From NCBI RefSeq assembly GCF_003426945.1, contig NZ_QURO01000004.1, positions 1,116,001 to 1,180,000 of the forward strand: 64,000 nt of DNA, given 5' to 3'. Below are positions 54,535 through 57,988 of the stretch, one piece after another. This stretch comes from Thermus sediminis. Its GTDB lineage: Bacteria > Deinococcota > Deinococci > Deinococcales > Thermaceae. How positions within the stretch are numbered: position 1 is the first letter of the stretch; every line of letters starts with the position of its first letter. A program made the translations under genes and the position numbers. The notes beneath the pieces were generated by a model that had not been told where the DNA came from, did not search any database, and saw only the letters and a list, made by a program, of their open reading frames with translations.

Positions 54535-54572
54535 AATGCGTCAGACCACAGGGCGTGCTAAAGTCTTCCCCG

Positions 54573-55274
54573 ATGCTCCTCCTCCTGGGCCCCACGGACG
54601 TGGGCAAGACCACCCTGGCCCTAAGGCTTCTGGAGCGGGCCAAGGAAGGGTACCTCCTGGACCTGGACCCGGGGCAGGGGGCCCTGCCCGGCACCTTCGC
54701 CCTCTTCCGCTACCGGGAGGGGAACCTCACCCTGGTGCGCCGCGCCTTGGTGGGGGCCCTCTCCCCCGTGGGGGTGGAGGCCAGGGCCCTGGTGGCCGCT
54801 CTCCGCCTCGCCCGCCTCATCCCCAGGGGAAGCCCGGCCATAGGGGACACGGATGGCCTCCTGGACCCCACCTACCGCCTCCTCCAGGTGGACGCCCTAA
54901 GCCCCGCCGAGGTCCTGGTCCTGGGCTCCGAGGCCCTCTACCGGGCCCTGAGCTGGCGCAAGGACCTCAGGGTGCGCCTGGCCAGGCCCCTTCCCGAGGC
55001 CCGGAGGAAGACCGCCGCCGAAAGGAGGCGAAACCGCCTGGAGAAGCTTCTTGCCCACTTCCAGGAGGCGAGGCCCAGAATCCTTCCCCTGGGAAGCACG
55101 GGTGAGCCCGGGAGGCTCTACGGCCTCCTGGACGCCGAGGGCTTCTTCCTGGCCTACGGGAGGCTCCTGGCCTGGGAAGGGGGGGAGGGGCTCTTCCTCA
55201 CCCCCCATGCGGGGGAGGTGGCCCGCCTCGAGGCCACCCGCCTTAGCCTCCCTACCCCCGCACTACCAGGTTGA
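54573..55274 (+). CDS. Clp1/Grc3-like P-loop protein
   Basis: 233 aa. It starts with [20 protein letters not shown], a Walker A of the Clp1/Grc3 kind (G-P-x-D-x-G-K-T, residues 6-13), followed by [16 protein letters not shown], close to the family's second motif with Asp/Gln. Grc3/Clp1 proteins are polynucleotide 5'-kinases involved in RNA processing, mostly archaeal and eukaryotic. Here the protein is short and its C-terminal half ([31 protein letters not shown]) is family-typical of bacterial relatives. ATG 54573 is 8 nt after TAAAGT; a GTG at 54555 is possible. Converges on leuS with 23 nt overlap. Confidence 0.75.
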
Positions 55275-57888
55275 GGATCTTGCCGGGGACGTAGATCTCC
55301 TTGACGATCTCCTTCCCCTCCAGGTGGGCCTGGACGTTTCGCACCTTGAGGGCCTCGGCCTTGGCCACCTCTAGGGGGGCGTCCTTGGGGATCTGGATGG
55401 TCCCCCGCACCCGGCCGTTCACCTGCACCGCCACCTCCACCACGCCCCTTTCTAGGGCCTCCTCGTCCAGCTCAGGCCAGCCCGCCTGGAAGAGGCTATC
55501 GGGCCAGAACCGGTGCCAAAGCTCCTCGGCCAGGTGGGGGGCGAAGGGGAAGAGCATCTGCAGGTAGTAGCGGATGGCGGTGCGGTAGACCGGGGTCACG
55601 GGGCGGGCCTTGCGGTACTCGTAGAGGGCGTTCAGGAACTCCATGAGGGCAGCGATGGCGGTGTTGAAGCGGAGGGCCTCGAGGTCCTCCGTCACCTTCT
55701 TGAGGGTGGCGTGGAGCTTCCGGTAAAGCTCCAGGTCCGCCCCTTCCAGCTCCTCCTTCTGGAAGCGGCCCGAGGTCTGGGCCAGGGCCTCGCGGTCCTC
55801 GGCCACCCGCCTGTAAATCCGGTTCAGGAAGCGCCAGGCCCCCTGGACCCCCTCCTCCGTCCAGACCATCTCGTTCTCGGGAGGGGCGGCGAAGAGGATG
55901 GTGATGCGGGCGATGTCCGCACCCTCCTCCCTCACGAAGGGCCCCACCATGACCCCGTTGCCCTTGGACTTGCTCATCACCGCGGGCTTCCAGAGGTGGA
56001 GGGTGCCGTCCTGGTGGGGCCTAAGCTCCGCCCCCATCTTCCCCACCTCTTCCAGGGAAAGCTCCCTCTCCTGGATCTCCAGCCGGAGGCGGGTGGGCTC
56101 GGGAAGGCGCACCCTATCCCCTTCCACCTCCACCTCTCCGAAGTCCGTCCAGGCCAGGACCATGCCCTGGGTGAAGAGGCCCTGGAAAGGCTCCTCCACC
56201 CCCACCATCCCCAGGTCGTGGAGGAACTTGGTGAAAAAGCGGCTATAGAGGAGGTGAAGCACCGCGTGCTCCACCCCGCCGATGTACTGGTCCACGGGCA
56301 TCCAGAAGTCCGCCTTCTTAGGGTCAAAGGGGAGGCGGTCGTTATGGGGGTCGGCGTAGCGGAGGTAGTACCAGCTAGAGTCAAAGAAGGTGTCCATGGT
56401 GTCCGTGTCCCGCCGGGCGGGGCCTTTGCACCTGGGGCAGGGGGTCTCGTAGAACTCGGGGTGGGCCTCCAGGGGGCTTTTCCCCTTGGGGCGGATGTCC
56501 TCCACGTCCTTGAGGTCGGGGAGGAGGACGGGAAGCTCCTCCTCGGGGACGGGCACCACGCCGCAGGAGGGGCAGTGGACCATGGGGATGGGGGTGCCCC
56601 AGTAGCGCTGGCGGCTGATGAGCCAGTCCCTTAGGCGGTAGGTGACCTTGGCCTTCCCCAGGCCCCTTTCCTCTAGCCAGAGGGTGATCCGCCTCTTGGC
56701 CTCCTCGCTGGGGAGGCCATCGAAGGGCCCCGAGTTCACCAGAATGCCGGGCTCCTCGTAGGCCCCTTCCAGGGGCTCGGGGAGGGACTTGCCGGGGCGC
56801 TCAATCACCTTCCGGATGGGAAGGCCAAACCTTTGGGCGAACTCGAAGTCCCTCCCGTCATGGGCAGGCACGGCCATGATGGCCCCGGTGCCGTAGCCAT
56901 AGAGGACGTAGTCCGCGGTCCAGATGGGGATCCTCTCCCCGGTGGCGGGGTTTTGGGCGTAGACCCCCAGGAAGACCCCGGTCTTCTCCCGGCCTTCCGC
57001 CTGGCGCTCGATCTCCGTCTTGTGCTTGGCGGCCTCCAAGTAGGCCAAGACCTCCTCCCGCTTATCGGGAGAGGCGAGCTCCAGGGCGAGGGGGTGCTCC
57101 GGGGCCAGGACCAGGAAGGTGGCCCCATAGAGGGTGTCGGGGCGGGTGGTGAAAACGGGGATCCTCACCTCCTTCCCCTCCACGGGGAAGAGGATCTCCG
57201 CCCCCTCGGAGCGGCCGATCCAGGCCCTCTGCATGGCCTTCACCTTCTCGGGCCAGCGGAGGCCCTCGAGGTCCTCCAGGAGCCTATCCGCGTAGGCGGT
57301 GATGCGGAGGTACCACTGGGTGAGCTCCCGCTTCTCCACCGGGGTGTCCTCGTGCCGCCAGCAGCGGCCCTCCACCACCTGCTCGTTGGCGAGGACGGTC
57401 TGGCACTTGGGGCACCAGTTCACCAGGCCCTTCGCCCGGTAGGCCAGGCCCTTCTCCCACATCTTGAGGAAGATCCACTGGTTGAAGCGGTAGTAGTCGG
57501 GCTCGCAGGTGGTCACCTCCCGGTCCCAGTCGTAGAGGATGCCCATGAGCTCCAGGCTCTCCTTGGCCTGGCGGATGTTCTCGTAGGTCCAGTCCCGGGG
57601 GTGGAGGCCGAACTTGAGGGCGGCGTTCTCCGCGGGAAGGCCGAAGGCGTCCCAGCCCATGGGGTGGAGGACCTCGTAGCCCTGGACCCGGCGGAAGCGG
57701 GCCAGGACGTCCCCCATGGTGTAGTTCTTCAGGTGGCCCATGTGCAGGTCCCCGGAGGGGTAGGGGAACATGACCAGGACGTACTGCTTCCCCTTTTTCC
57801 CGGGGACCTCCTGGGCCCTCATGAAGCCCCTCTCCTTCCAAAAGCGCTGCCACCTGGGCTCTATGGCGTGCGGGTTGTACTTCTCCAT
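55252..57888 (-). CDS. leuS: Leucyl-tRNA synthetase
   Basis: 878 aa, the length of T. thermophilus LeuRS. Class Ia HIGH motif in [14 protein letters not shown], zinc cluster [14 protein letters not shown], the CP1 editing domain with [14 protein letters not shown] and [12 protein letters not shown], a second zinc-like module [13 protein letters not shown] with CPRCKGPA, and KMSKS as [14 protein letters not shown] 57888 has GAGGAGG upstream. The leader contains a peptide with a leucine codon and an intrinsic terminator (separate entries). Its 3' end overlaps the Clp1-like gene. Confidence 0.97.
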
Positions 57889-57901
57889 CCTCTTCCTCCT
57901 C

Positions 57902-57937
57902 AAAAAAAGCCCTTCCCCCGGGGGAAGGGACGGCCAG
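57902..57937 (-). terminator. Attenuator terminator in the leuS leader
   Basis: Minus strand: CCCTTCCCCC/GGGGGAAGGG (complement of 57910-57929) followed by seven T (57908-57902), placed between the leuS promoter and its ribosome-binding site. It is a good Rho-independent terminator, but it lies 14 nt before the leuS ATG, where only conditional termination makes sense. The upstream G7AG4 run can pair with its 5' arm as an antiterminator. Confidence 0.82.
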
Positions 57938-57949
57938 ACCCCTCCCCCC

Positions 57950-57976
57950 CTAAGGGGCTAGCCTGGCCGGGCGCAT
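57950..57976 (-). CDS. leuS leader peptide (candidate)
   Basis: An 8-codon open frame: ATG CGC CCG GCC AGG CTA GCC CCT TAG, encoding MRPARLAP. The ATG (57976-57974) is 6 nt after a TATCAT -10 (complement of 57983-57988), the same leaderless geometry as many real genes in this window. Codon 6 is CTA, a leucine codon that Thermus uses sparingly. CGGCCAG in codons 2-5 can pair with CTGGCCG (57937-57931) downstream. A ribosome stalled at CTA would cover that arm. No Shine-Dalgarno is needed. Function inferred from position and structure. Confidence 0.65.
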
Positions 57977-57982
57977 GAGACC

Positions 57983-57988
57983 ATGATA
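57983..57988 (-). promoter_or_regulatory. -10 element of the leuS leader transcript
   Basis: TATCAT on the minus strand, directly after the yihY stop codon (57992-57994) and 6 nt before the leader-peptide ATG. It makes leuS separately controllable from the proB-proA-TPR-yihY genes upstream. Confidence 0.58.

Follow-up and report, generated by a model that had tools for sequence, protein, structure and literature searches.

The window analysed here, a 64,000-nucleotide stretch of Thermus sediminis DNA, carries the leucyl-tRNA synthetase gene leuS on its minus strand, preceded by a short leader with its own promoter box, a very small open reading frame and a terminator (Table 1). The earlier note described a TATCAT hexamer, a six-base gap, an eight-codon frame (MRPARLAP) with a sole CTA, a G7AG4 run, a terminator with a T7 tract, a GAGGAGG motif and the leuS ATG, and all of these are located in the minus strand. 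The CGGCCAG segment that it described as complementary to CTGGCCG is also present, but lies in codons 3–5 of the frame rather than codons 2–5. A gene for a BrkB/YihY-type membrane protein (PF03631; 57992–58774, minus strand) stops just short of the leuS −10 box, and its 3′ end therefore shares sequence with the part of the leuS promoter that lies further upstream. At the other end of leuS, a convergent ORF (54555–55274, plus strand) encodes a CLP1 P-loop domain (Pfam PF16575, E 9e-12).

Table 1. Features of leuS and its leader in the T. sediminis window.
Feature	Position	Strand	Basis
leuS promoter −10 hexamer, TATCAT	57983..57988	−	Sequence; TANNAT-N6-ATG enrichment
Leader ORF MRPARLAP, 8 codons, putatively leaderless; ATG at 57976, 6 nt past the −10 box	57950..57976	−	Sequence and orthologous leaders
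Leader ORF codons ATG CGC CCG GCC AGG CTA GCC CCT TAG	57976-57950; stop 57952-57950	−	Sequence
Control codon CTA (predicted), codon 6, the only Leu codon of the leader ORF	57959..57961	−	Comparative leaders
Segment 1, predicted protector-stem 5′ arm, inside codons 3–6	57960..57969	−	RNA folding
Segment 2, G7AG4, predicted antiterminator 5′ arm, starting at the final base of the stop codon	57939..57950	−	Pairs with CCCTTCCCCC (folding)
Protector stem, predicted 3′ arm	57931..57940	−	Folding; CCTGGCCG conserved in Thermus
CTGGCCG, in the protector 3′ arm	57937-57931	−	Sequence
Intrinsic terminator hairpin CCCTTCCCCCGGGGGAAGGG, 5′ arm = segment 3, followed by C	57910..57929	−	Terminator scan; −14.0 kcal/mol at 37 °C
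Terminator T7 tract	57902..57908	−	Terminator scan and sequence
leuS Shine-Dalgarno sequence, GAGGAGG	57895..57901	−	Sequence
leuS, leucyl-tRNA synthetase, 878 aa, ATG at 57888	55252..57888	−	Pfam PF13603, PF00133, PF14795, PF08264

The single leader in the window is weak evidence on its own, because a 1-kb scan finds three terminator-like sites where shuffled sequences give 1.0 ± 1.2, and the leader fold by itself is only modestly stable (z −1.2). So mildly unusual a sequence would suit a reading in which the short ORF is a by-product and leuS is limited by a plain terminator, or controlled by a protein or another ligand. The comparisons below bear on this, both through the promoter and through the leaders of related genomes.

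The spacing of the leader promoter suggests that the short ORF is translated from a leaderless message. The arrangement TANNAT-N6-ATG occurs seven times in the window where 0.18 are expected, and genome-wide there are 103 occurrences against 13 for a reversed control, an approximately 8-fold enrichment. Nearly all of the 102 sites examined begin long ORFs, nine have an ORF no longer than 35 codons, and, by eye and for this spacing and ATG only, leuS alone among them has a short ORF followed by a terminator. A TANNNT motif adjoining the ORF drives leaderless genes in Deinococcus-Thermus (PMC12340547), and the leuS leader has such a motif a few bases ahead of its start codon; the genomic enrichment together with this published role indicates that the 8-codon ORF carries the host's signal for leaderless translation. 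The genes described in that work share the TANNNT box a few bases before ATG with the leuS leader and differ from it in being ordinary genes, and the main text of PMC12340547 does not contain 'leader peptide', 'attenuation' or leuS. The spacer between the −10 box and the start is 6 nt in 53 of 65 leaders from the host and its relatives.

We collected leaders from Thermus, its sister genus (G049), Meiothermus, Calidithermus, a marine family (f4) and three deeper families (f2, f3 and f5); genome searches at class and phylum level gave none recognisable as Deinococcaceae. Leaders were picked by their −10 box, spacing and ORF length, and CTA was never a criterion. A leader ORF is present in 80 of 91 leuS upstream regions (66 unique sequences), including all 27 Thermus genomes searched (T. 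igniterrae, T. brockianus, T. scotoductus, T. composti and T. parvatiensis among them), the sister genus, nearly all Meiothermus and Calidithermus, and members of the marine family and of the three deeper families. The ORF is 7–10 codons long in Thermus and most Meiothermus. An in-frame CTA is found in 64 of the 66 unique leaders; the other two (L325 and L326) keep the promoter and start and otherwise look degenerate. CTA supplies 90 of the 126 Leu codons in the unique leaders, a count from sequences that share kinship and are not independent, so that a binomial value for it ignores kinship. Its share of Leu codons is 4.1% in 47 ORFs of the window and 4.9% in codons 2–15 of 88 leaderless genes.

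More telling than the count is that CTA remains constant where the adjacent codons, the peptide length and the stems differ by lineage. The T. parvatiensis leader reads GTG CGC GCG TCC CTA CGT CCC TAG and that of Meiothermus includes CGC CTA GAA CTA CCT TAG, while the marine relatives have ACG CGC ACC GGC CTA or ACC GGC CTA CCC and the deeper families have CGA CTA or CTA CTA CTA, with CGA CTA CTA CTA in one f5 genome. It is thus the codon itself that is kept and not just leucine, which indicates selection on the decoding of CTA. The alignment of relatives proposed in the earlier note therefore bears out the leader peptide and its CTA across Thermus and beyond, with stems that vary by lineage. 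The codon before the first CTA encodes Arg in 35 of 65 leaders, and is AGG in Thermus and often CGA in f5.

The frame of these codons counts against a by-product ORF. In the 66 unique leaders, CTA trinucleotides number 90 in frame and 4 in each of the other two frames, and all three stop codons are in use (29 TAG, 18 TGA and 18 TAA in 65 leaders), which indicates that translation of the leader matters. The leader has been lost in some relatives, as a by-product might be; 11 of the 91 regions are without a candidate (two Meiothermus, M. rufus and G037, one f4 and eight f5), so the leader is dispensable. All that is left in these two Meiothermus is a promoter-like box adjoining leuS, which may give constitutive leuS expression. 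We consider it very improbable that the short ORF is a by-product. Some Meiothermus leaders (e.g. L060 and L072) have a TACAAT-like box near leuS, 3′ of the terminator, that resembles a second promoter; the box left in M. rufus and G037 is the counterpart of this one.

A T-box, in which uncharged tRNA-Leu would pair with a CUA specifier without any translation, is suggested by the general use of T-boxes at synthetase genes, including the ile and gly (but not leu) ligases listed for D. radiodurans in the same phylum (PMC2494555), and CTA can be read as a specifier. However, the leader spans only ~75 nt from ATG to T-tract, and CTA always lies within a start-to-stop frame whose stop varies and whose leaderless start is fixed; Rfam searches gave no T-box, either at gathering score across the window or at E<=1 for five leader loci. 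A T-box at leuS is hardly credible on these grounds. Nascent-chain arrest, with a leader peptide that senses a small molecule or drug and an incidental CTA, could draw on the frequent Arg before CTA, but it too is scarcely plausible, as peptide sequence and length diverge widely among lineages around a constant codon and synonymous Leu codons would be tolerated.

Attenuation by a translating ribosome predicts that the position of the ribosome decides which of two structures forms, and this can be examined by folding. We placed the leading edge of the ribosome at a single round value, 12 nt beyond the first nucleotide of the codon in the A site. For the window sequence, a stall at CTA leaves GGGGGGAGGGG free, and this pairs with the 5′ arm of the terminator at −22.8 kcal/mol compared with −14.0 kcal/mol for the terminator (37 °C); with the ribosome at the stop codon the antiterminator pairing is worth only −1.8 kcal/mol. 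At 65 °C the corresponding values are −12.7 kcal/mol for the CTA stall, −7.6 kcal/mol for the terminator and 0 kcal/mol at the stop, and in folding of the window sequence the switch is retained at 65–70 °C. With no ribosome, the protector stem folds in the window sequence, with the terminator after it.

The same behaviour is predicted throughout Thermus, where a ribosome positioned at CTA frees an antiterminator at least as stable as the terminator and one at the stop does not. Moving the ribosome from the stop to CTA raises the probability that upstream sequence holds the terminator 5′ arm by at least 0.2 in 25 of 25 Thermus-group leaders (means of 0.35 at the stop and 0.94 at CTA). Elsewhere this difference is found in 5/6 f4, 3/3 f3, 6/17 Meiothermus and Calidithermus, 5/10 f5 and 0/1 f2 leaders. 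The claim in the earlier note that a stall at CTA would favor the antiterminator and arrival at the stop the terminator is thus upheld by computed folding in Thermus and is weaker elsewhere. The energy of the antiterminator formed by the freed stretch is better than that of shuffles on average in every group (mean z of −2.4 in the Thermus group, −2.2 in f4 and −3.7 in f3), and a hairpin ending near a run of four or more T residues is present in 62 distinct CTA leaders.

Alignment of the Thermus and sister-genus leaders (23 sequences) shows 96.7% of cells paired in the protector stem, with one double change, from A-U to C-G in G049. The antiterminator is 97.8% paired in the Thermus group with no double change, and covariation is no better than in shuffles; it is weak within this group because the sequences are too alike. 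The pairing of the Thermus-group stems is consistent with the predicted structures without proving them.

Two layouts of the frame are seen, and in 39 of 65 leaders the frame ends at the third or fourth codon past CTA. Thermus, Meiothermus and f4 have the stop 3–4 codons past CTA, just ahead of or at the G-run, whereas the frame of Calidithermus, f2, f3 and f5 mostly continues for 7–12 more codons and crosses the G-run. With either layout an unstalled ribosome would finish over the 5′ arm of the antiterminator.

leuS is preceded by a short ORF with a codon for its cognate amino acid, an intrinsic terminator lies between that ORF and leuS, and in silico an exclusive antiterminator is freed only by a stall at the control codon (in all 25 Thermus-group leaders, more weakly in Meiothermus and the deeper families). 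From the sequence, its conservation and the computed folding we infer that the leuS leader is very probably a ribosome-mediated transcription attenuator that reads charged tRNA-Leu via one CTA codon, with a probability of about 0.88, and that its regulatory response would run as follows. The promoter spacing suggests that transcription begins at the leader ATG or immediately beside it, with direct loading of a ribosome on the leaderless 5′ end. When Leu-tRNA is ample, the ribosome would pass CTA, reach the stop and mask the G-run, such that the terminator forms and leuS is off. When the CTA-reading tRNA is uncharged, the ribosome would stall with CTA in its A site and cover segment 1, while the G-run 12 nt downstream would stay free; the antiterminator would then take the 5′ arm of the terminator and leuS would be made. 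In the window sequence, folding predicts termination as the default when the leader ORF is untranslated, as the protector stem would hide the G-run.

The pheST leader, a known synthetase example, has several Phe codons and is led by a Shine-Dalgarno sequence. It resembles the leuS leader in being a case of leader-peptide attenuation of a synthetase gene, and concerns another amino acid and another phylum, the gamma-proteobacteria; attenuators of leuS and trpS have been predicted in Streptomyces (PMC1262725). The earlier note regarded attenuation of a synthetase gene through one rare codon as unusual, and these examples give synthetase attenuation a precedent. In Streptomyces avermitilis and S. 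coelicolor the candidate attenuators likewise have a leader ORF with Leu codons, an antiterminator and a terminator before leuS (PMC1262725), although they belong to another phylum and the likeness is one of layout. In contrast to Streptomyces, the leaders described here have a near-invariant CTA and a presumably leaderless start, with an ORF of 7–10 codons in Thermus and most Meiothermus, and the arrangement spans several families.

A further likeness is to leuL of E. coli and Salmonella, a leucine-sensing attenuator that also has CUA as its control codon (PMC1183508); leuL controls biosynthesis, and the Salmonella leader has three CUA codons compared with the single one in Thermus. Selective-charging theory ranks CUA first among Leu control codons in E. 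coli, and changing CUA to CUG in the Salmonella leu leader lowered sensitivity (PMC1183508). In the same model one control codon is less sensitive than several (PMC1183508), and this low single-codon sensitivity counts against a reading through one CTA.

The earlier note also stated that leaderless leader peptides had been reported in Thermus; no such report was found in the open-access literature searched, which likewise yielded no description of a leader-peptide attenuator in Thermus or Deinococcus. Rfam amino-acid leader families have no match in the window or the leader loci. Within Rfam and the open-access literature searched, a clade-wide, leaderless and CTA-specific leuS attenuator, with one control codon in Thermus, appears undescribed: the mechanism is in principle known, and its leaderless, codon-specific form spanning several families would be new. 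We lean slightly towards a broader view, in which the attenuator is ancestral in the Thermus lineage and its sister families and reports charging of the CUA-reading isoacceptor by a single codon at the start of a leaderless message, so that evolution in a phylum far from E. coli reached the Leu control codon that theory ranks best.

Synonymous-codon preference and the number of control codons in attenuators have been studied mainly in enterobacteria. The leuS leader would offer a minimal natural attenuator from a distant phylum, with CTA making up most of the Leu codons amid variable surroundings, so that selective-charging theory (CTA versus CTG, CTC and TTG) and single-codon sensitivity could be tested directly. 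It bears too on the means by which ribosomes loading on a leaderless message keep up with RNA polymerase, and many genomes would gain short ORFs so far unannotated, together with regulation of a synthetase gene.

We also inspected other synthetase genes of the host, locating their regions through Pfam families. No cognate short ORF with a terminator was seen by eye at the SerS, ThrS, ProS, HisS, GlyS, ValS, IleS, MetG, TrpS, TyrS or PheS regions, and the ileS and glyS regions have no Rfam family above gathering score. Upstream of the host ileS (L175) there is GGTGGTACCGCGG, followed by a GC-rich hairpin and TTTT, which resembles a T-box antiterminator.

In some Meiothermus (M. luteus and relatives; loci L057–L059 and L203) a tRNA-Leu gene lies directly 5′ of leuS. 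The T-tract of the leuS terminator is decayed in L057 and L058, and the leader is missing in L059. Two genomes, G072 (L295 and L328) and G094 (L308 and L329), have two leuS matches each with CTA leaders at both, the paired leaders being identical within G072 and differing within G094.
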